A stretch of DNA of 64,000 bases. Source: Rhodospirillales bacterium (lineage in GTDB: Bacteria; Pseudomonadota; Alphaproteobacteria; Rhodospirillales; WMHbin7). A program made the position numbers and the translations under genes. Each line of letters begins with the position of its first letter. Position 1 is the stretch's first letter. Shown here one piece after another: positions 617 through 13,114 of this stretch. The stretch is taken from positions 1-64,000 of the forward strand of contig JACRJC010000034.1 in NCBI GenBank assembly GCA_016215555.1, written 5' to 3'. The notes beneath the pieces are model-generated. The model was not told the DNA's origin and made no database searches. It saw nothing but the letters and a program-made list of their open reading frames with translations.

Positions 617-728
617 GGCGTGTCTCCCAAGAAGTGTGGAAGCTGGCGAGGCTAAAGGTGCCGGGGAGCGTGCGGCGGGGCATGCATCATTCATGCGGGA
701 TCAGAATCAAGAAAGGAAGATGACCTCA

Positions 729-2462
729 ATGGGAAACGAGAGTTTGATTGGGCGTCTTCTCAAACGGAAGGTTCTTGGCGCGTCGGTTGGTAGCGCGCTA
801 TTTCTCTTCGTGGCGGGAATCATCTTCTGGGGCGGCTTCAACACGGCAATGGAAGCCACCAACACCATGCCCTTCTGCACTGGCTGCCATGTGATGGAAT
901 CCACCGTATTCCAGGAATACAAGCACACCATTCACTACGACAACCGCACCGGTGTGCGCGCCATCTGCTCCGACTGCCATGTGCCGCATCCCTGGGTCTA
1001 TAAATTCGTGCGCAAGATTCAGGCCTCGAACGAGATTTTCCACTGGATTTTGGGCACCATCAACTCGCCGGAGAAGTTCGAAGAAAAGCGTCTCACGCTG
1101 GCCAAGAGCGTCTGGAAGTCAATGAAAAACACCGATTCGCGCGAGTGCCGCAACTGCCATACCAACGAGGGCATGAGCATGACGCAGCAAAGGCCGCGCG
1201 CTGCCAAGCAGCACGTGAACATGGTCAAGGAGGGGCTGACCTGCATCGATTGCCACAAGGGCATCGCGCACCGCGCCATTCACAAGAAGCTGCCCGACGA
1301 CTACGCCCATTATGACGGCAAGGCGGACCAAGCCTTCAAGCTGCCGGTTATTTCACCTGAGGAACTGCAAACCGAGATGCAGGCTGGACGCCTGACGCAG
1401 CCTATGCCGGGTGCCCAGGCGCCTGCCTCCGCGCCCGAATCGGCTTCGCCCGCAGCCCCGGATTCGCCCGCCCTGACCTCTCCATCCACAGCAACTCCGG
1501 CGCAGGCGGCCAACGTTCCGGTCAATTGGGACAAGGCTGCGGCACTTGAGGTTCCGCTCTTCTATCCCGGCCAGACCGGCCTCGAATGGGTGCTGAAGGG
1601 CACAGATCATGGCGGCGCAAGGGCCGTGCGCAAGGGCGGCGACCGCTGCTTCGAATGCCACGGCAAGGAGCAGCCTGCGATGGGTGAAAAGATGGTTAGC
1701 GGCGCCAAGGCTGAGACGACGCCGATTGCCAAGAAGCGCGCTGCGGTCAATCTTTCGGTCAAGGCAGCGCATGACGGCAAGAATTTATATGTGCGCTTCC
1801 AGTGGCCGGACGGACCGCACACCCCGGCTCCCTTCGCGTCAGGAGGCAAGATGGACCCCGATAACCAGATCAAGCTGGCCATGATGATCACCGGAAGTGA
1901 GATCGACATGGGTGAGCAGTCTGGATGCTGGGTTACCTGCCACCAGGATTCGCGCTACATGTCCGAGGCCCCGAAGACCGAAGGCATCTCCGCCGATCTC
2001 AAGCAGAGGCTGAAGATCACCGATGGGCCGACCAAATATCTGGCGGAAAGCCGCACGGCGGTCGAGCTTAGCAACCCACCGCGCGGCGGCTGGGACAAGG
2101 TGAAGCCGCAGGCAGATCTCGACGCGCTGATGAAGGCTGGAACGCTCATGGAACTGTCGCGCTTCAAGAGCGGCAAGGGCGGCGTCAGCGAAAACGGCTA
2201 TGTGCTGGAGAAGCGGGCCAGCGAGGGCGGCGTCCCGACCACCTTTCAGGGCGGCTTGGCGGGCGGCATCTGGACGGTAACCATGATCCGGCCATTGAAG
2301 GCGGGCAAGCCTGGTTTCCAGGATCTGGCTCCCGGCAACCTCTATACGGTGGGCATCGCGCTGCATGACGACTTCACCAATGCGCGCTTCCACCATATCT
2401 CGCTAGAGTATAAGCTGGGGATCGATAATTCCCAGGCCCAGATCAACGCGGTGAAGCAATAG
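729..2462 (+). CDS. nirT: NapC/NirT-type tetrahaem cytochrome c fused to a C-terminal dihaem domain
   Basis: Membrane-anchored quinol-oxidising cytochrome likely to pass electrons to periplasmic nitrite reductase NirS. One N-terminal transmembrane helix (about residues 15-37) is followed by the four CxxCH motifs of the NapC/NirT family (CTGCH, CSDCH, CRNCH, CIDCH). An Ala/Pro-rich linker leads to a second domain of about 300 residues with CFECH and an unusual CX3CH site (CWVTCH), resembling the haem-binding ethylbenzene-dehydrogenase/cytochrome c-552-like family. Classical NirT is only about 200 residues, so this is a fusion. The ATG at 729 is chosen because AGGAAG lies 9 bases upstream; the ATG at 720 would have no spacing. 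It is followed 21 bases later by the cupredoxin gene, probably in one operon. The fold assignment of the C-terminal domain is inference from motif and length. Confidence 0.85.
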   Translation: MGNESLIGRLLKRKVLGASVGSALFLFVAGIIFWGGFNTAMEATNTMPFCTGCHVMESTVFQEYKHTIHYDNRTGVRAICSDCHVPHPWVYKFVRKIQASNEIFHWILGTINSPEKFEEKRLTLAKSVWKSMKNTDSRECRNCHTNEGMSMTQQRPRAAKQHVNMVKEGLTCIDCHKGIAHRAIHKKLPDDYAHYDGKADQAFKLPVISPEELQTEMQAGRLTQPMPGAQAPASAPESASPAAPDSPALTSPSTATPAQAANVPVNWDKAAALEVPLFYPGQTGLEWVLKGTDHGGARAVRKGGDRCFECHGKEQPAMGEKMVSGAKAETTPIAKKRAAVNLSVKAAHDGKNLYVRFQWPDGPHTPAPFASGGKMDPDNQIKLAMMITGSEIDMGEQSGCWVTCHQDSRYMSEAPKTEGISADLKQRLKITDGPTKYLAESRTAVELSNPPRGGWDKVKPQADLDALMKAGTLMELSRFKSGKGGVSENGYVLEKRASEGGVPTTFQGGLAGGIWTVTMIRPLKAGKPGFQDLAPGNLYTVGIALHDDFTNARFHHISLEYKLGIDNSQAQINAVKQ

Positions 2463-2483: not shown

Positions 2484-2918
2484 ATGCCCAAAGCGCCACC
2501 TCTTGTCCTTCTTGCGCTCCTTGCGGAGGCGGCGGCGGCTTTTCCCGCGCTGGCGCAGAACAAAGGGAGCGAACAGAAGGCCATCTGCCTCGAGGCCGAG
2601 GCGGAAGCCGCCAATCAGGGGGTTTCGCCCTCCGGTCCTGCCCAGAATGGCAAGGACTTCACCATTCTGCTCTTCAAATATCGCTTCTGTCCCCAGCTTG
2701 CCAGAGTTGCCAAGGGGACGTCGGTCACCTGGATCAATATCGATAAGCGCACCAGCCACAGCGTTTGGTTCAAGGAAGCAGGCAAGGACGAGTCCGAACG
2801 CCTGTTCAATGCCGATACATGGCGGATTTCCTTTGAGAAACCGGGCACGTATCACTATCTGTGCGGACCGCATTGGGAAAAGGAAGGCATGATCGGAACC
2901 CTTGAGGTGCTGCCGTGA
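2484..2918 (+). CDS. Exported cupredoxin (plastocyanin/pseudoazurin-like type 1 copper protein)
   Basis: Small periplasmic electron carrier, probably a donor to NirS or an acceptor from the NirT-like cytochrome. The 144-residue product has a signal peptide ending near ALAQ (residue 25). All four type 1 copper ligands are visible: His92, Cys127, His130 and Met136 in the C-terminal CGPHWEKEGM loop. The His-to-Met spacing is one residue longer than in plastocyanin. A strong GGAGGGGG ribosome site lies 8 bases before the ATG. It sits between nirT and nirS and is likely cotranscribed with nirT. Which subfamily it belongs to cannot be settled by eye. Confidence 0.85.
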   Translation: MPKAPPLVLLALLAEAAAAFPALAQNKGSEQKAICLEAEAEAANQGVSPSGPAQNGKDFTILLFKYRFCPQLARVAKGTSVTWINIDKRTSHSVWFKEAGKDESERLFNADTWRISFEKPGTYHYLCGPHWEKEGMIGTLEVLP

Positions 2919-3105: not shown

Positions 3106-4752
<1,647 letters not shown>

Positions 4753-4778
4753 CTTGCTGTTGCACTGAAAGAAAACTG

Positions 4779-4811
4779 CCGGGCGGTCCGCAAGAGCCGC
4801 CCGGTTTTTTT
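4779..4811 (+). terminator. Rho-independent terminator after nirS
   Basis: A perfect 8-bp GC stem (CCGGGCGG at 4779-4786 with CCGCCCGG at 4797-4804), a 10-base loop and a run of seven T form a textbook intrinsic terminator 26 bases past the nirS stop. Confidence 0.92.
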
Positions 4812-4864: not shown

Positions 4865-4986
4865 GTCACTGGGTTGGCGCAAGGTGTTTAGTTGGGATGT
4901 CTTGGCTGTCACTGCAGGGCGAAAGCCATGGACGAGAGGGCGGAGTCTGACGTTGGAAAACAGAGAGAATCCCCTTGGAACGCAAG

Positions 4987-5766
4987 ATGCCTAAGCCCGG
5001 CATGGTCTATCTGGTCGGCTCCGGTCCGGGCGATCCTGATCTGCTTACTGTGCGCGCCCTCAAGCTCATCCAATCGGCGGATGTCGTGGTCTATGACCGT
5101 CTGGTCGGCCAGAGGATTCTCGATCTCGTTCCCTCCGGCACCATGCGCGTCTTCGTTGGCAAGGAAAGCGGCTACCACATCATGCCGCAACCTGAGATCA
5201 ATGAGCTTCTCTTGTCGCTGGCCAAGGCGGGGCGCATGGTGGTGCGACTCAAGGGCGGCGACCCCTATATTTTCGGTCGTGGCGCCGAGGAGGCGCTGGA
5301 ACTGATTCGCGCCGGTATCGCCTTCAAAACCGTTCCCGGCGTCAGCGCGGCGTCAGGCATTGGCGCCGAGTTGGGCATTCCGCTTACCCATCGCGGGCTT
5401 GCCACGTCGGTGCGCTTTGTGGCTGGACACTTGAAGGAGGATAGTGATCTGCAACTGGATTGGCGCAGCCTAGCCGACCCCTCCTGCACTCTGGTAATCT
5501 ATATGGGCCTCACGGCGGCGGCGCGCATTTCAGCCGAACTGATCCAGGCCGGCTTGCCGGGCTCGACACCCGTCGCCTTGGTAGAAAACGGCACCATGCC
5601 GCAGGAGCGCCACCACTTCACGACGCTCCGGGATATGCCCGAGGCGGTGACGCGCCTCGCATTCGTTCCACCTACTCTGATCTTGGTCGGTCGCGTGGTC
5701 AATTTTGCCGCCCTTCTTGGGCGGGAAGAGTGGCCGGTGGAGATCGCCGCCGGAAGCCATGGTTAA
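4987..5766 (+). CDS. nirE: Uroporphyrinogen-III C-methyltransferase for haem d1
   Basis: SAM-dependent enzyme methylating uroporphyrinogen III at C2 and C7 to precorrin-2, the first step toward haem d1. The product has the SUMT hallmarks: VYLVGSGPGDPDLLT at the N terminus, the VVRLKGGDPYIFGR motif and GVSAASG. Length (about 259 residues) is normal for NirE/CobA. Either the ATG at 4987 (GGAA upstream) or the TTG at 4975, four codons earlier, could be used. It overlaps nirC by 8 bases, so translation is probably coupled. Confidence 0.93.
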   Translation: MPKPGMVYLVGSGPGDPDLLTVRALKLIQSADVVVYDRLVGQRILDLVPSGTMRVFVGKESGYHIMPQPEINELLLSLAKAGRMVVRLKGGDPYIFGRGAEEALELIRAGIAFKTVPGVSAASGIGAELGIPLTHRGLATSVRFVAGHLKEDSDLQLDWRSLADPSCTLVIYMGLTAAARISAELIQAGLPGSTPVALVENGTMPQERHHFTTLRDMPEAVTRLAFVPPTLILVGRVVNFAALLGREEWPVEIAAGSHG

Positions 5767-6076
5767 GCCCGTGGCCCTGCTCGCAGCCCTTGCCCTGGCG
5801 ATTCCTCCTGCACAGGCAGCTCCTGACCTGGAGCGCCAGAAGGAACTGCTCGAATTCCTGCGCCAGGATTGCGGCGCCTGCCACGGCATGACGTTGAAGG
5901 GCGGTCTGGGCAGTCCCTTGCTGCCTGGGAATTTGACCGGGTACGATCCGCAGGGCTTGGCCGAGATCATTCTTAACGGCAAGCTGGGAACTCCGATGCC
6001 GCCCTGGAAGGATCTGCTCACTCAAGACGAGGCCGAGTGGCTGGCGCAAGGCTTGGTCCGCGGAGCCTTCCCATGA
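5759..6076 (+). CDS. nirC: Small monohaem cytochrome c
   Basis: A periplasmic c-type cytochrome of 105 residues with a signal peptide (VALLAALALAIPPAQA) and a single CGACH motif; a Met ligand is likely in the GTPMPPW segment. NirC homologues accept or donate electrons in NirS reduction or haem d1 maturation. The ATG at 5759 gives a proper signal peptide and overlaps the nirE end. The stop codon overlaps the nirF start (ATGA). Confidence 0.88.
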   Translation: MVKPVALLAALALAIPPAQAAPDLERQKELLEFLRQDCGACHGMTLKGGLGSPLLPGNLTGYDPQGLAEIILNGKLGTPMPPWKDLLTQDEAEWLAQGLVRGAFP

Positions 6077-7236
6077 AACGGCTGGCCGCTCTTGTTCTTT
6101 TCCTGTTTCTGTCCGCCTGCGCGGGCCTTGAGCCTAGAGGCACGGGTGATCTGGGCATCATTATCGAGCGCGCCACAGGTAGCGTGCTGGTCGTTGATAC
6201 CACGAAGCGCGCCATTCTTGGCCGCATCGAGGGGCTGGGCGATCTCTCGCACGCCTCCATGGTTTTTTCGCGCGACCAACGCTACGCCTACATCTTCGGG
6301 CGCGATGGCGGCCTTTCGAAGGTCGATCTCTTGGAGCGGCGGATCGCGGCCCGCATCGTGCAGGCCGGGAATTCCATCGGTGGCGCCATTGGTCCCAAGG
6401 GCGATTGGGTGGCGGCGGCCAATTACGAGCCGGGTGGCGTCAAATTCTTCGATGCGGCCTCGCTTGCGCAGCTGGCGGAAATTCCCGCCCTTGTCGATGG
6501 CAAAGCCTCGAAGGTGATCGGCATCGCCGAGGCGCCGGGCAACCGCCTTGTTTTCAGCCTCTATGACGCAGGCGAAATCTGGCTGGCAGACATGACCGAT
6601 GTCAAGACCCCCTGGGTGCGCAAGTTCAAACAGGCGGGCCAACTGCCGTATGACGGGCTGATCACCTATGATGGACGCCATTATCTAGCCGGACTCTTCG
6701 GCGAGGACGGGCTTGCTCTGCTCGATTTGTGGAATCTGGAGGCGGGAACAAAAAAGATCATGCCGGGTTACGGCAAGGGCCAGGAGCCTCTGCCGGTCTA
6801 TAAGATGCCGCATCTGCGCGGCTGGTCGCAGGCCGGCGACGAAATGTTCCTGCCCGCCATCGGTCGCCATGAGGTGCTGGTGGTTGATCGCCGCGGCTGG
6901 AAAGAGGCGGCGCGCATTCCGGTGGCCGGCCAGCCGGTCTTCGTGATCGCAAGGCCCGATGGCCGCCAAGTCTGGGTCAATTTTGCCTTGCCCAACAATG
7001 GCCTGATCCAGGTGATCGACGTGCCGACGCGCCAGATCGTGAAAACGCTGAAGCCGGGAAAAGCGATTTTGCATCTCGAATTCGCCTCCAAGGGAACCGA
7101 GGTCTGGGTAAGCGCCCGCGACGACGATCAGGTGATCGCGCTAGATACCGAGACCTTCGCCGAATTAGCCCGCATTCCTGCGCAGAAGCCTTCCGGAATC
7201 TTCTTCACCTCGCGCGCGCACCGGCTGGGGCTCTAG
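6073..7236 (+). CDS. nirF: Haem d1 biosynthesis protein NirF (lipoprotein)
   Basis: NirF is a d1-binding propeller protein needed for late haem d1 synthesis. The 387-residue product starts with a lipoprotein signal (LFLFLSAC), so it should be anchored in the membrane facing the periplasm. The rest is a NirS-like propeller without a c haem. Conserved histidines are kept in LSHASMVF and MPHLRGW. The start overlaps the nirC stop in ATGA, and nirD follows after 2 bases. Confidence 0.92.
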   Translation: MKRLAALVLFLFLSACAGLEPRGTGDLGIIIERATGSVLVVDTTKRAILGRIEGLGDLSHASMVFSRDQRYAYIFGRDGGLSKVDLLERRIAARIVQAGNSIGGAIGPKGDWVAAANYEPGGVKFFDAASLAQLAEIPALVDGKASKVIGIAEAPGNRLVFSLYDAGEIWLADMTDVKTPWVRKFKQAGQLPYDGLITYDGRHYLAGLFGEDGLALLDLWNLEAGTKKIMPGYGKGQEPLPVYKMPHLRGWSQAGDEMFLPAIGRHEVLVVDRRGWKEAARIPVAGQPVFVIARPDGRQVWVNFALPNNGLIQVIDVPTRQIVKTLKPGKAILHLEFASKGTEVWVSARDDDQVIALDTETFAELARIPAQKPSGIFFTSRAHRLGL

Positions 7237-7238
7237 CC

Positions 7239-7682
7239 ATGGACGAGTTCGATCGCCGCTTGCTTTCAGATTTCCAGCGCAGTTTCCCGCTGGTTCCCCA
7301 ACCTTTTGCGGAATTGGCCCGGCGGCTGGATTGCTGCGAGGATGAAGTCATCGAAGCCTATGGCCGCTTGAAGGATGAAGGCGCGATCAGCCGCATCGGC
7401 GCCGTGGTCAGGGTCAACGCGGCGGGGGCCAGCACGCTCGCCGCGATAGCCGTTCCGCAGTCCCGGCTGGACGAGGTGGCCGCCCTGGTCTCTGCCTATC
7501 CCGAGGTCAATCACAATTACGAACGCGAGCACGGCCTCAATCTCTGGTTCGTCGTCACCGCGCCCGACCGGGCGCGGGTCGATGCCGTGCTGGCCGACAT
7601 CGGGATCCGGACCGGCCTTGAGGTTCTCGATTTGCCGATGCGGGCCGAATACCACATCGATTTGGGCTTTGATCTGCCATGA
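7239..7682 (+). CDS. nirD: Sirohaem decarboxylase subunit NirD
   Basis: AsnC/Lrp-like subunit of the NirDLGH complex that decarboxylates sirohaem to 12,18-didecarboxysirohaem. The 147-residue product shows the family signatures: an N-terminal winged-helix segment (MDEFDRRLLSDFQRSFPL), ISRIGAVV, and NHNYERE in the ligand-binding half. It overlaps nirL by 4 bases. Assignment to NirD rather than NirG is by order. Confidence 0.88.
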   Translation: MDEFDRRLLSDFQRSFPLVPQPFAELARRLDCCEDEVIEAYGRLKDEGAISRIGAVVRVNAAGASTLAAIAVPQSRLDEVAALVSAYPEVNHNYEREHGLNLWFVVTAPDRARVDAVLADIGIRTGLEVLDLPMRAEYHIDLGFDLP

Positions 7683-8179
7683 CGCCAAGCCGTCATGACC
7701 TCGCCCTGATCGCCGCCCTCAGGAACGGCTTGCCCTTGGTCTCGCACCCCTATGCCGAGATCGGCAAGGCTTGCGGCCTCGACGAGGGTCAGGTAATCGC
7801 CCGTCTGGGCACCCTGCTGGAAAGCGGCGTTCTGAAACGCTTCGGCGTCGTCGTGCGCCACCATGAACTAGGCTATTCCGCCAACGCCATGTCGGTCTGG
7901 GAGATCCCAGAAGACCGGATCGACGAGATCGGCGCCAGGTTGGGTGCCGTGCCCTGCGTCACGCTCTGCTACCGCCGCCCTCGCCGTCCTCCCGTCTGGC
8001 CCTACAATCTCTTCTGTATGATCCACGGCAAGGATCGCGAGGCCGTGAAGAGTTGCATCCAGGGGCTAATCGAGCAATTTGGCCTAGCCGTCTATCCCCA
8101 CGACGTGCTGTTCAGCACAAGGCGCTTCAAGCAGACTGGCGGCCGCTATGGCCGCTCGGCCGATGAGGCGGCGGCATGA
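7679..8179 (+). CDS. nirL: Sirohaem decarboxylase subunit NirL
   Basis: Second AsnC-type subunit of the sirohaem decarboxylase set, 166 residues. It has LKRFGVVVRHHELGYSANAM and the CYRRPRRPPVWPYNLFCMIH segment typical of NirL/NirH. It overlaps nirD and nirG by 4 bases each. The pairs NirD/NirL and NirG/NirH look like a duplicated two-gene unit. Confidence 0.88.
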   Translation: MTPSRHDLALIAALRNGLPLVSHPYAEIGKACGLDEGQVIARLGTLLESGVLKRFGVVVRHHELGYSANAMSVWEIPEDRIDEIGARLGAVPCVTLCYRRPRRPPVWPYNLFCMIHGKDREAVKSCIQGLIEQFGLAVYPHDVLFSTRRFKQTGGRYGRSADEAAA

Positions 8180-8628
8180 GCGATCTCGATTCCATCGAGC
8201 GGCGCATCGTCAACGAATGGCAGGAGGGCGTTCCCGTTTGCTCGCGGCCCTACGCCGTTATGGCAGAAAAGCTGGGCATCGGCGAGGCCGAACTGCTCGC
8301 CAGGATCGAGAGCCTGCTGGCGCGCAAGGTGCTGACCCGCTTCGGACCACTCTTCAACGCTGATCGCATGGGCGGCGGTTTCCTTTTGGCCGCCATCGCC
8401 GTGCCCGAGGCGCGTTTCGACGAGGTGGCGGACAAAGTCAACGCGTTCCCGGAAGTGGCGCACAATTACGCCCGCACGCATGCGCTCAACATGTGGTTCG
8501 TGATCGCCTGCGAGAAGCCCGAACGCATCGGCGAGGTGGTGGCCGAGATCGAGGCGGCGACCGGGCTTACGGTGCATCCCATGCCCAAGCTGGCGGAATT
8601 CTTCATCGATGCAAGGTTTGCGGCATGA
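8176..8628 (+). CDS. nirG: Sirohaem decarboxylase subunit NirG
   Basis: Third AsnC-type subunit, 150 residues, closely resembling NirD (LTRFGPLFNADRMGGGF, VAHNYARTHALNMWFV). It contributes to the sirohaem decarboxylase. It overlaps nirL and nirH by 4 bases each. Confidence 0.88.
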   Translation: MSDLDSIERRIVNEWQEGVPVCSRPYAVMAEKLGIGEAELLARIESLLARKVLTRFGPLFNADRMGGGFLLAAIAVPEARFDEVADKVNAFPEVAHNYARTHALNMWFVIACEKPERIGEVVAEIEAATGLTVHPMPKLAEFFIDARFAA

Positions 8629-9116
8629 GCGCCTCGGCCTTCCTCAAGCCGCTCGACCGCGCCATCGTCAAGGCGACCCAGGCCGGCCTGCCGCTGGTTG
8701 CTGAGCCCTGGAAGGCGGTGGCTGATCTGGCCGGAGTCCGCGAGGAAGAGGTGATGGAAAGCGCCCGCGCCATGCTGGCAAGCGGCGTCATGCGCCGTAT
8801 CGGCGCGGTGCCCAACCACTACGCGCTGGGCTATGTCGCCAACGGCATGACGGTGTGGGATGTGGGCGACGAAGTGATCGAAGAGGCGGGCCGGATGCTG
8901 TCCAGGCTCGATTTCGTCACCCATTGCTATCACCGCCCGCGCCATATGCCCGATTGGCCCTACAATCTCTTCGCCATGGTGCACGACAAGGACCGCGCCA
9001 AGGTGGAGGCGCGGGTGGAGGAGATGGCGGCGCTGCTAGGATCGCGATCGCGGGGCCACGACGTGCTCTACAGCACCCGAATTCTTAAGAAGACCGGACT
9101 GAGGATCGGAGCGTAG
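8625..9116 (+). CDS. nirH: Sirohaem decarboxylase subunit NirH
   Basis: Fourth AsnC-type subunit, 163 residues, with MRRIGAVPNHYALGYVANGM and CYHRPRHMPDWPYNLFAMVH, the same pattern as NirL. The ATG at 8625 overlaps the nirG stop (ATGA); the longer in-frame extension upstream lies inside nirG and is rejected. nirJ starts 2 bases after the stop. Confidence 0.88.
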   Translation: MSASAFLKPLDRAIVKATQAGLPLVAEPWKAVADLAGVREEEVMESARAMLASGVMRRIGAVPNHYALGYVANGMTVWDVGDEVIEEAGRMLSRLDFVTHCYHRPRHMPDWPYNLFAMVHDKDRAKVEARVEEMAALLGSRSRGHDVLYSTRILKKTGLRIGA

Positions 9117-9118
9117 AC

Positions 9119-10273
9119 ATGTTCCGGCTCAGCCAATTCCTCGAAGCCCTTGACGAACCGGCCCCCACGGAGCCAAGGCGCGCTTCTCCGGGGCCGGTGG
9201 TAATCTGGAATCTGGTCCGCCGCTGCAACCTCACCTGCCTGCATTGCTATTCCGGCTCGTCGGACAAGTCTTTCCCGGGTGAACTTGCGACGGACGAAAT
9301 CCTCCGCGTCATGGGCGATCTCAAGGCCTTCTGCGTACCGGTGCTGATCCTGTCCGGCGGTGAGCCGCTTCTGCGCCCCGACATCTACGACATTGCCCGC
9401 CACGCCAAGCAGATGGGCTTTTATGTCGCGCTGTCCACCAACGGCACGTTGATCAACCAGCCTGCCGCCCAGCGCATCGCCGCACTCGGCCTTGATTATG
9501 TTGGCATCAGCCTGGACGGCGTGGGCGAGACGCACGACAAATTCCGCGGCAAGACGGGCGCGTTCTCGCAAGCGCTCCAGGGCATTCGGCTCTGCCGCGA
9601 GACGGGCGTCAAGGTGGGCTTGCGCTTCACCATGACCGAGGAAAATTTCCCCTCGCTGCCTCGTCTGCTTGAGGTGATGGAAGAGGAACGGGTGGAGAAA
9701 TTCTATCTCTCGCACCTCAATTACGCCGGACGCGGCAACGCCAACCGGGACGAAGACGCGGCGCTTGCCACCACCCGCCAGGCGATGGAGCTGCTGTTCG
9801 AAGCGGCGCTGGCGCATGTGGAGGCCGGACGGCATCGTGAGTTCGTCACCGGCAACAATGACGCCGACGGCCCTTTCCTTCTGCAATGGGTGGCCAAGCG
9901 CTTTCCCGAAAAGGCGGCGGCGCTGGAGCAGCGTCTGATCCGCTGGGGCGGCAATGCGAGCGGCATCAACGTCGCCAACATCGACAACAGGGGCGATGTG
10001 CATCCCGACACTATGTGGTGGAACCACACGATCGGCAATGTGCGCCAGCGCGCCTTCGGCGACATATGGAACGATCTTGCCGATCCCCTGATGGCGGGAT
10101 TGAAGCAAAGGCCGAGACCGGTAAGCGGACGCTGCGCCGCCTGCCGCCATCTTCCGATCTGCAACGGCAACACGCGCACACGCGCCTTCCGCCTGACCGG
10201 AGATCCCTGGACCGAAGACCCGGGCTGCTACCTCACCGATGAGGAAATCGGCCTCAAGAAAGCCGCGGAGTGA
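9119..10273 (+). CDS. nirJ: Radical SAM haem d1 biosynthesis protein NirJ
   Basis: Radical SAM enzyme that replaces propionate side chains during conversion of didecarboxysirohaem toward haem d1. The 384-residue protein has the CNLTCLHCY cluster motif (CX3CX2C), the SAM-binding SGGEPLLRPD segment and a C-terminal cysteine-rich auxiliary cluster region (CAACRHLPICNGNTR plus a later Cys). Length matches NirJ. It overlaps the start region of nirN. Confidence 0.93.
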   Translation: MFRLSQFLEALDEPAPTEPRRASPGPVVIWNLVRRCNLTCLHCYSGSSDKSFPGELATDEILRVMGDLKAFCVPVLILSGGEPLLRPDIYDIARHAKQMGFYVALSTNGTLINQPAAQRIAALGLDYVGISLDGVGETHDKFRGKTGAFSQALQGIRLCRETGVKVGLRFTMTEENFPSLPRLLEVMEEERVEKFYLSHLNYAGRGNANRDEDAALATTRQAMELLFEAALAHVEAGRHREFVTGNNDADGPFLLQWVAKRFPEKAAALEQRLIRWGGNASGINVANIDNRGDVHPDTMWWNHTIGNVRQRAFGDIWNDLADPLMAGLKQRPRPVSGRCAACRHLPICNGNTRTRAFRLTGDPWTEDPGCYLTDEEIGLKKAAE

Positions 10274-10275
10274 CA

Positions 10276-11817
10276 ATGAAAAGCCTTCTCGCCGGCCTGC
10301 TCGCTCTCCTCGCCCTGCCCGCGTTGGCGGATGCTGATGCGGGAAAACTCTATGCCGACCATTGCGCCGACTGCCACGGCTTCGACCGGTTGGGCGGCGT
10401 GGGGCCTGCGCTGCTGCCGGAAAATCTTGGGCGCTTGAAGCCGGCCGAGGCGGTGCAGGTGATTCTCGAAGGCCGCGTCGCCACCCAGATGCTGGGCATG
10501 GGCGACAAGCTCTCCAGGGGAGAGGCCGAGGTGTTGGCTAAGCACATCTACACGCCCTTGGCGCGCATTCCTGTTTGGGGCGAGACAGAAATCGCGGCCA
10601 GCCGCGTCACGCTGACCCCGCCCGAATCCTTGCCCGCAAAGCCTGTCCACCAGGCCAATCCCCTGAATCTCTTCACCGTGGTGGAACTGGGCGATCACCA
10701 CGTCACCATTCTTGATGGCGACCGGTTCCTGCCTCTCAACCGCTTCCAGAGCCGCTTCGCGCTGCATGGCGGCGCAAAATATTCGCCGGATGGCCGCTTC
10801 GTCTATCTCGCCTCGCGTGATGGGTGGGTGCTGAAATACGATCTCTATTCCCTAAAGCCGGTGGCAGAAGTGAGAGTCGGCATCAACACACGCAACATCG
10901 CGGTTTCTTCGGACGGGCGCTACGTCGCAGCCGCCAACTATCTGCCGCACACGATCACCCTCCTCGATGCCAGCGACCTCTCACCCTTGAAGGTCATTGA
11001 GGTCAAGGATGAGAATGGAACCTCCTCGCGCGTTTCAGCGATCTACACCGCGCCGCCGCGCCAGGCCTTCATCGCCGCCTTGAAGGATGTCAAGGAAGTC
11101 TGGGAAATTCCCTACGGCGACACTGCAAAGGTCAGCGCTGGTCTGGTCCATGGCTACGAAAAAAGCAAGGCCGGGGCGCGGCCCGTGCAGAGCCGCTTCC
11201 CGTTACGGCGCATTGTGGTGGACGGAATCCTGGACGATTTCTTCTTTGATCCTGCCTATGCCCACCTGATCGGGGCGTCGCGGGAAGGCAAGGCGCAGGT
11301 GGTCGATCTGCTGGCCGGGCGCACGATCAAGAGCATCGAGCTTTCCGGTATGCCACATCTGGGCTCGGGCATCGTCTTCCAGAGCGAGGGCCGCCAGCTA
11401 ATGGCGACGCCCAACTTAAAGGAGTCCATCGTCAGTATTGTCGATATGAAGAACTGGGAGGTGGTGAAGCGCATCGCCACGCCGGGGCCGGGCTTTTTTC
11501 TGCGCGGCCACGAGAACAGCCCCTACGCCTGGACCGACGCCATGATGGGCAAGGTCAAAGATACCATGACCATCATCGACACCCGCACGCTGGAGGTGGT
11601 GCGAACCATCACGCCCTCTCCCGGCAAGACGGCGGCGCATGTCGAATTCACCCGCGACGGCAAGTATGCACTGGTCTCAATCTGGGAAATGGATGGCGAT
11701 CTGGTGATCTACGACGCCGCAACCTTCCTAGAGGTGAAACGCCTGCCGATGAAGAAGCCGTCTGGCAAATACAATGTCTGGAACAAGATCAATTATTCCA
11801 GCGGCACGAGCCATTAG
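10276..11817 (+). CDS. nirN: Dihydro-haem d1 dehydrogenase NirN
   Basis: Periplasmic NirS paralogue catalysing the last step of haem d1 synthesis (introduction of the acrylate double bond). It has a signal peptide (SLLAGLLALLALPALA), a cytochrome c domain with CADCH, and a d1 propeller. Histidines are present at FALHGGAKYSPDG, MPHLGSG and LRGHENSPYAW. The ATG at 10276 is preferred over the GTG at 10270, which overlaps the nirJ stop. At about 513 residues the length is normal. Confidence 0.9.
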   Translation: MKSLLAGLLALLALPALADADAGKLYADHCADCHGFDRLGGVGPALLPENLGRLKPAEAVQVILEGRVATQMLGMGDKLSRGEAEVLAKHIYTPLARIPVWGETEIAASRVTLTPPESLPAKPVHQANPLNLFTVVELGDHHVTILDGDRFLPLNRFQSRFALHGGAKYSPDGRFVYLASRDGWVLKYDLYSLKPVAEVRVGINTRNIAVSSDGRYVAAANYLPHTITLLDASDLSPLKVIEVKDENGTSSRVSAIYTAPPRQAFIAALKDVKEVWEIPYGDTAKVSAGLVHGYEKSKAGARPVQSRFPLRRIVVDGILDDFFFDPAYAHLIGASREGKAQVVDLLAGRTIKSIELSGMPHLGSGIVFQSEGRQLMATPNLKESIVSIVDMKNWEVVKRIATPGPGFFLRGHENSPYAWTDAMMGKVKDTMTIIDTRTLEVVRTITPSPGKTAAHVEFTRDGKYALVSIWEMDGDLVIYDAATFLEVKRLPMKKPSGKYNVWNKINYSSGTSH

Positions 11818-11824
11818 CCTAACC

Positions 11825-13114
11825 ATGCGCCCGATTTCGATACTAGCGGCCTTTACCTTGCTACTAAGTCCTGCAGCCAAAGGAGAAAATCCCTCTTGGG
11901 TCTGGAGTGTTGAGGATATCGCGGCCAGCCGGAGCTACCTTGCGCCGCTGGAAGCGGATTCCGCATCTGCAGGGCGCGTACTGTTCCTAGCAATCGAGGC
12001 CGGGGACCGGCGCCTTGCCGTCCTAGACGCCTCCAGCCTCAAACTTCTGGCCCGCATCCCCTTGCGCTCCGAGCCGGTGGGACCGCCGGTTCTCTCGCCC
12101 GATGGCAGGTTCGCTTACACGCTCTCCCCGGATGGCTGGATCGACAAGTGCGACCTTAGGGCGTTGCGCCATGCGGGAGCGGTTCGGGCGGGGCTGGAGG
12201 CGCGCGGCTTGGCACTGTCCGGTGACGGGAAATGGCTGCTCGCCGCCTTGTCACGCCCGGGCGGTCTGGCGGCGATTCTGGCCCAGGATCTGACGCCCTT
12301 CCGAGTCATTCCGGGGCGCGACGACAAGGGGGGTGTTTCCGAAGCCGGGGCGGTCTTCGCCGCTCCGGCGCGGTCGAGCTTTATCGCCGCGTTGCCGGGC
12401 ATTTCGGAAATCTGGGAACTCAGCCACGACGAGAACGCCGAGCCGGTCTATGCCGGCATGGTCCATTCCTTTGAGAAGGGAAGCGAGGAAGGCGTTGGTG
12501 AGGCGCAGCCCTTCGCCAGACGGCGCACGAAGACCGATCCCGACCTTGAGGGCTTCTTCTTCAGCCCGGACTTCGTTGAGATCGGCGGCGGGACGCGCGA
12601 CGGCCCTGGGGGCGCTGTCTATAATCTGGACGCCCGCCGCCGGGCGGCCCGCCTGCCCGCCAACATTTCTCCCCGCTTTGAGGCGTCGATCTCCATCCAG
12701 ATCAAGAGTCGCCGCGCCATACTCTTTCCGATGGCCGGATCGTCCGAACTTGGCGTCTTGGAGCTTGATAGCTGGAAGATCCTCTCCCGGCTGGCGCTGC
12801 GCGCTCCCGCCCTATTCCTCAAGCAACAGCCCAACGCCGATCTGGTCTGGGCCAGCGGCTTTTCCGGCAAGGACAAAGACGTCATTCAATTAATCGATCT
12901 GCGCAGCCTGCGGGCAGAGAGGGTTTTCGGGCCTTTTCCAGGCAAGGCCGTCGGACAGGCGATCTTCTCCGCCGACGGCAAAACCGCCTTTGTCCTGCTC
13001 ACCGGGTCAGAGGGCGGCATCGTCGCCATCGACACCGTCTCGCTCACCCCTGTTAAAACCCTGCCACTGAAAAACCCCGTTTCCTTCGTCATAGTCTTGC
13101 CACCTCCACCTTAG
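11825..13114 (+). CDS. NirN-like propeller lacking haem c and d1-site histidines
   Basis: The 429-residue product has a signal peptide (ISILAAFTLLLSPAAKG), then a segment that aligns with NirN immediately after its cytochrome c domain (VEDIAASRSYL beside NirN EIAASRVTL), then the whole propeller. There is no CxxCH. The three histidines shared in NirN are replaced: ALHGGAK becomes PVGPPV, MPHLGSG becomes SPRFEAS, and LRGHENS becomes LKQQPNA. It therefore looks like a copy of nirN that lost both cofactor sites yet keeps an intact reading frame. It begins 7 bases after nirN and is surely cotranscribed. A chaperone, scaffold or haem d1 carrier role is possible but unproven. Confidence 0.8.
   Translation: MRPISILAAFTLLLSPAAKGENPSWVWSVEDIAASRSYLAPLEADSASAGRVLFLAIEAGDRRLAVLDASSLKLLARIPLRSEPVGPPVLSPDGRFAYTLSPDGWIDKCDLRALRHAGAVRAGLEARGLALSGDGKWLLAALSRPGGLAAILAQDLTPFRVIPGRDDKGGVSEAGAVFAAPARSSFIAALPGISEIWELSHDENAEPVYAGMVHSFEKGSEEGVGEAQPFARRRTKTDPDLEGFFFSPDFVEIGGGTRDGPGGAVYNLDARRRAARLPANISPRFEASISIQIKSRRAILFPMAGSSELGVLELDSWKILSRLALRAPALFLKQQPNADLVWASGFSGKDKDVIQLIDLRSLRAERVFGPFPGKAVGQAIFSADGKTAFVLLTGSEGGIVAIDTVSLTPVKTLPLKNPVSFVIVLPPPP

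Follow-up and report, generated by a model that had tools for sequence, protein, structure and literature searches.

The window, that is, the whole 64,000-nt stretch of DNA analysed here, carries a nir cluster on the forward strand (Table 1). Genes for a NapC/NirT-type cytochrome, a cupredoxin and NirS are followed by a haem d1 biosynthesis block, an intact nirN and a gene whose product, a haem-less NirN-type propeller, is called pseudo-NirN below. Terminator-like hairpins were sought by pattern matching, with a total of matches not above that of shuffled sequences. One match lies 3' of nirS, the next candidate on the plus strand (8362-8380) is weak, and none falls between nirN and the pseudo-NirN gene. 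The Cys-rich protein encoded 3' of pseudo-NirN has no Pfam or NCBIfam match, and its predicted model (pLDDT 75) has no Foldseek match at E < 0.001.

Table 1. Features of the nir cluster and of the pseudo-NirN gene in the window
Feature	Position	Strand	Remark
NapC/NirT multihaem cytochrome fused to EB_dh-type haem-binding domain	720..2462	+	Relatives accompany nirS in related clusters
Cupredoxin, part of nirS module	2484..2918	+	Relatives accompany nirS in related clusters
nirS (type A), cytochrome cd1 nitrite reductase	3109..4752	+
Terminator-like hairpin 3' of nirS	4778..4805	+	Pattern match; total not above shuffles
Haem d1 biosynthesis block 5' of nirN	4975..10276	+
nirE(cobA)	4975-5766	+
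nirC	5705-6076	+
nirF	to 7236	+
nirD	7239-7682	+
nirL	7679-8179	+
nirG	8176-8628	+
nirH	to 9116	+
nirJ	9119-10276	+
nirN	10270..11817	+	Intact; CxxCH and d1 site present
Pseudo-NirN gene, haem-less NirN-type eight-bladed propeller, 429 aa	11825..13114	+	Without haem c and d1 site
Signal-peptide-like N terminus, residues 1-20	11825..11884	+	Read from sequence
Val85 in place of NirN His147 (F-A-L-H-G-G), proximal haem d1 ligand	12077..12079	+	Alignment
Pro102 in place of invariant Arg of S-R-D-G-W (NirS Arg198 equivalent)	12128..12130	+	Alignment
Conserved segment WELSHD...GMVHSFEKG...QPFARRRT, residues 195-245	12407..12559	+	Best conserved stretch against G004 relative
Arg284 in place of His323 (G-M-P-H-L), distal ligand	12674..12676	+	Alignment
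Gln378 in place of His417 (A-H-V-E-F)	12956..12958	+	Alignment
Val422 in place of catalytic Tyr461 (G-K-Y-N-V)	13088..13090	+	Alignment
Secreted-type Cys-rich protein, 160 aa	13254..13736	+	3' of pseudo-NirN gene

The pseudo-NirN frame, stop codon included, is translated into 429 residues with zero internal stops, and each of the other five frames contains 5-14 stops. Its ATG lies 7 nt past the nirN stop codon (11815-11817), and its codon-position GC (0.66/0.51/0.74) is akin to that of the neighbouring nir genes. The N-terminal sequence (MRPISILAAFTLLLSPAAKG) is signal-peptide-like by inspection. Against PF02239 (Cytochrom_D1) the protein scores 151.8 bits, and the bit score is 233 with the window NirN and 56 with the window NirF. 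When solved structures were searched with phmmer, the best match was NirN (6rtd, 1.9e-62), and the alignment pairs residue 26 of pseudo-NirN with chain residue 117, just past the cytochrome c domain. The protein contains a single Cys and no CxxCH. The initial annotation, which had described a complete 429-residue frame with a signal peptide, alignable to NirN from just after the cytochrome c domain and free of CxxCH, is upheld on all of these points.

In Kluenemann et al. 2019, a work cited in PMC7242693, NirN His147 and His323 are reportedly the proximal and the distal ligand of haem d1, Tyr461 is said to be essential and His417 to lie near the reacting group. NirN residue numbers used here were matched to the 6rtd chain with a constant offset of 34. 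These four residues, together with several other pocket columns, are invariant in 97-98 of 98 canonical NirN proteins. The exchange of three NirN histidines for Val, Arg and Gln had been noted before and was found again at Val85, Arg284 and Gln378, but the loss is wider than had been claimed. Beyond the replacements listed in Table 1, the Asn of N-T-R-N is changed to Gly, the Arg of S-S-R-V-S to Glu, the R/H of F-L-R-G-H to K/Q and the Asp of W-T-D to Ser. By alignment, Val85 also occupies the position of NirS His182. The Arg of S-R-D-G-W was equated with NirS Arg198 by numbering on the NirS alignment, and NirS Arg198 is one of three Arg residues touching the haem d1 side chains (PMC7278500). 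The Arg of N-T-R-N is still present in pseudo-NirN, as are invariant NirN residues including D103, G104, R121 and R183.

The search for relatives covered 317 genomes from the same order, 385 from the class and 398 from the phylum. In the large searches, scoring stopped after the top four or five candidates in each genome, and strongly diverged copies may be missed by them. At least seven further genes lacking haem c and most of the d1 site (stripped genes) were found, all in Alphaproteobacteria. Together with the window gene they represent eight genomes (the others are G004, G136, G137, G442, G359, G508 and G600) and four sequence groups. G004, a Rhodospirillales bacterium, belongs to the family of the window genome. 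Several carrier genomes are incomplete metagenome assemblies, and the G137 copy is cut by a contig end. A NirN-type match was present in about 105 genomes sampled from the order and in 22 sampled from the class, so that the stripped gene, found in 8 genomes of about 125 NirN-bearing alphaproteobacteria sampled, is rare. Among the scored candidates of the phylum sample (398 genomes), none outside Alphaproteobacteria was a stripped gene. The genome-contig search gave no relatives when one protein was the query; with an alignment as query, it recovered the G004 gene (L102) and, through its NirN, the G136 cluster (L112), other matches being NirN or remote. The plasmid search returned nothing beyond NirN-level matches (32-38%). 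No Cytochrom_D1 gene was found in G001, G002 and G003, which belong to the window's own genus, and the nir cluster is therefore patchy within the genus.

Three candidates were rejected. The G080 frame belongs to an ordinary NirN whose d1 site is intact, and starts within its cytochrome c domain; the G703 protein contains CxxCH; and the G313 gene is a nirN in decay that keeps its d1 site. The last is a second nirN copy adjoining nirS (L092 5000-6394), with CxxC lacking the His and an in-frame TAG immediately 3' of the catalytic Tyr codon; its remaining d1 site is intact.

The positions of H147, H417, Y461 and the W-T-D Asp are substituted in every relative having the position, and those of H323 and the S-R-D-G-W Arg in six of the eight stripped genes. 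G136 and G137 still have the Arg of S-R-D-G-W and that of N-T-R-N, and G508 and G600 still have His323. A comparison over 109 NirN-invariant columns counts 41 as lost in five or more of six lineages and 24 as kept. Most of the kept columns hold Gly, Asp, Trp or Pro, which we read as the kind expected from blade structure, plus Arg121, Arg183, Glu198 and His214. The initial annotation had also considered a different histidine set placed at the d1 site. In the alignment of the eight stripped genes no alternative conserved His set was found there, and the replacements vary by lineage with no conserved substitute residue.

These losses bear on whether pseudo-NirN may still hold haem d1 or a precursor, such as the dilactone of NirF/NirC, without an axial His and thus act as a carrier or insertion chaperone. 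The fold and the invariant residues D103, G104, R121 and R183 are kept, G136/G137 and G508/G600 retain the pocket residues just named, and a dilactone intermediate is indeed handled by NirF (PMC13168839). However, the axial ligands were lost jointly with the side-chain-binding Arg and the catalytic Tyr, and no conserved substitute took their place, so a carrier of this kind seems quite improbable. Having neither haem c nor a d1 pocket, pseudo-NirN should neither dehydrogenate nor carry haem d1; we infer the lack of binding from the residues.

The mature pseudo-NirN was modelled with AlphaFold2 from an alignment of two relatives and 13 NirN sequences, whose NirN rows may bias the model somewhat toward the NirN fold. 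The model has a pLDDT of 86 and a pTM of 0.86. Its best matches among solved structures are NirN 6rte/6rtd (Z 48, 34-35% identity) over all blades, followed by NirS (Z 37-39) and NirF (Z 38), with nearly the whole model covered. The structure prediction and superposition on NirN and NirS proposed at the outset thus show, in the model, a retained NirN fold. Between the window protein and its G004 relative, identity is 50-77% at residues 91-270 with a peak of 77% at 211-240, versus 17-48% outside this region and 17-40% in the C-terminal part. The peak overlaps a loop (residues 211-224) predicted to be disordered in pseudo-NirN (pLDDT 38), and the motif VH..F....F..RR is retained. His214 and Arg233-Arg234 are kept in all eight stripped genes. 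The same His and Arg-Arg positions are also found in 87 and 85 of 98 canonical NirN proteins, respectively, indicating that the loop is an inherited feature.

The gene was initially thought to be kept in the operon after nirN. This is true of the window, but in the other seven genomes the nearest haem d1 propeller gene is nirS, usually with NapC/NirT and cupredoxin genes, and adjacency to nirN is seen in the window only. It is a rare family in the genomes sampled, and Rhodospirillales do not generally carry it 3' of nirN. In G359, nirS, NapC, cupredoxin and the stripped gene lie on one strand, and in G442 the order is nirS, stripped gene, nirS, NapC, cupredoxin, nirE and nirF. In G004, the stripped gene and its small downstream partner, a Cys-rich protein 67% identical to that of the window and directly 3' of the stripped gene, are divergent from NapC, cupredoxin, two nirS genes, nirE, nirF and the rest. 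The stripped gene is divergent from nirS, NapC and cupredoxin in G508 and G600 and from nirS in G136 and G137; in G136 the stripped gene is followed by nirE, nirC, nirF and further genes, and in G137 NapC comes after nirS. Weaker relatives of the Cys-rich protein follow canonical nirN in G184 (L053) and G045 (L017).

Six of the eight genomes have a set of nirS, NapC-EB_dh and cupredoxin in the cluster of the stripped gene, the contigs of the other two ending inside NapC (G137) and inside nirS (G136). Compared with the window NirS, the NirS proteins of these genomes form three types, with identities of 73-100% (type A), 59-64% (type B) and 46-50% (type C). The stripped gene was found in 6 of 20 genomes with type-A NirS versus 2 of 60 without it (Fisher p 0.0025, uncorrected for relatedness); by genus, p was about 0.0005 in a table counted by hand and likewise uncorrected. 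Two nirS of different types occur in tandem in the G004 cluster (L031 9725-13313), and in G442 (L097 5940-10777) they flank the stripped gene. The shared set could also mean that pseudo-NirN is a structural adaptor which joins NapC/NirT, cupredoxin and NirS for electron transfer rather than for cofactor insertion. We consider this unlikely, since G005 has NapC, cupredoxin and nirS without a stripped gene, and since the stripped gene sits with haem d1 synthesis genes in the window and in G136.

The initial annotation had taken the gene for a paralogue of NirN. Consistently, NirN is the best match by both sequence and structure, and pseudo-NirN falls outside the NirF clade in the tree. When pairs were placed singly, both the window/G004 pair and the G508/G600 pair fell inside one and the same NirN group (set support 99), which comes from genomes mostly with type-C NirS, the own-genome NirN lying elsewhere; the loop motif QPFARRR agrees with this placement. 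A recent tandem duplication of the adjacent nirN was considered; the single-pair trees and the loop motif lean against it, although an AU test did not reject grouping the window/G004 genes with their own NirN (p 0.65). Trees of all eight genes have very long branches that make joint trees unreliable, and in them one origin for all eight corresponds to one side of a branch with support 87-89 that lacks significance. As judged from alignment and trees, pseudo-NirN is a descendant of NirN, and we make no claim as to the date and number of origins.

Pairwise dN/dS of the stripped gene was 0.17 in G508/G600, 0.18 in G136/G137, a pair with few substitutions, and 0.42 in window/G004, a pair with large synonymous change. 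In the same pairs it was mostly lower for other nir genes (0.02-0.23); a value of 0.45 for the G136/G137 NirN frame was disregarded, since that frame includes an upstream extension. With dN/dS well below 1 in three pairs, the stripped gene appears constrained, less so than most of its neighbours. Between window and G004, identity is 47% for pseudo-NirN, 90% for NirS and 70% for NirF. A pseudogene, which the initial annotation had considered as a counter-reading, does not agree with the open frames and purifying selection of the relatives. The related view that the gene is a decaying NirN duplicate with no function of its own and not yet lost, its adjacency to nirN in the window being a relic, would account for the fast evolution, the loss of the whole active site, the patchy distribution and the truncated C terminus of the G508/G600 copies; G313 shows what a truly decaying nirN copy looks like. 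In contrast, all eight frames are open (one cut by a contig end), the length of 429 residues is identical in window and G004 at 47% identity, and a position near nirS is retained in four sequence groups. Together with the dN/dS values, these observations make decay rather unlikely.

Stripped copies that stay intact in several bacteria, mostly beside nirS, suggest that pseudo-NirN probably has no enzymatic role and serves NirS as a helper or docking protein. Among the roles first proposed (scaffold, d1 carrier, maturation partner of NirN/NirF), scaffold or assembly factor is favoured, and the joint loss of the axial ligands and of most residues that bind the side chains speaks against the d1 carrier. 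We give an even chance to the proposal that pseudo-NirN is a NirN-derived periplasmic pseudoenzyme selected as a protein-binding scaffold or assembly factor of the NirS system. It would bind to apo-NirS or to the transient NirF-NirN-NirS maturation complex through surfaces that it owes to its NirN descent, the conserved flexible loop possibly among them. This binding role is suggested by the linkage to the nirS module, the conservation pattern and the known contacts among NirF, NirN and NirS. In Pseudomonas aeruginosa, NirS associates weakly and transiently with NirN and NirF in one complex while it matures (PMC3694632), and NirF and NirC make dihydro-haem d1, which is oxidised by NirN (PMC13168839).

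Several points count against a NirS partner. The gene evolves fast, as a gene under weak constraint would, and its C-terminal part, truncated in G508/G600, is poorly conserved between window and G004. Catalytic NirN proteins commonly have the loop too, which may thus be retained for structural reasons, and the eight stripped genes may not share one origin. Moreover, 14 of 20 genomes with type-A NirS, as well as the G005 module, are without the gene, indicating that it is dispensable or replaceable. The broader proposal, that NirN-derived haem-free assembly or docking factors serving the NapC/cupredoxin-linked NirS module are an unrecognised component of cytochrome cd1 maturation, is tentative and we hold it somewhat short of even.

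A NirS helper of this type bears on the periplasmic delivery of haem d1 to NirS and on the mutual recognition of NirN, NirF and NirS. As a natural NirN with the fold but without the chemistry, pseudo-NirN would allow a binding role to be separated from the catalytic role, and it shows which surfaces are still under selection once the haem site is released. It is also a warning for annotation, because such genes match the Cytochrom_D1 family and, judged by the labels that NirN-type matches carry in plasmid records, are likely to be mislabelled 'nitrite reductase' or 'cytochrome D1 domain-containing protein'.

Among known propellers, NirN (6rtd, 6rte) is closest to pseudo-NirN, sharing the eight-bladed fold, the best sequence match and the nir locus. 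NirN has a cytochrome c domain with CxxCH and the residues His147, His323, His417 and Tyr461, whereas pseudo-NirN has neither the domain nor the motif and is without all four residues and most invariant pocket residues. NirF (6tv2, Z 38) is likewise a single-domain periplasmic d1-type propeller without a cytochrome c domain. It binds a d1-type tetrapyrrole and is an enzyme together with NirC (PMC13168839); its identity to pseudo-NirN is 21-22%, while pseudo-NirN is a NirN derivative by sequence and tree. NirS (1nir, Z 37-39) shares the propeller fold and is the genomic neighbour in related clusters, but it has haem c and d1 ligands, both absent from pseudo-NirN, and is 15-17% identical. A protein that one paper describes as an outgroup of NirS is reportedly also a d1-type propeller without a cytochrome c domain. 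The initial annotation knew of no named nir gene of this form, and our search, which covered mostly open literature, found no description or name either. By the features tested, pseudo-NirN is a variant of the d1-type propeller family, distinct from NirN, NirF and NirS.
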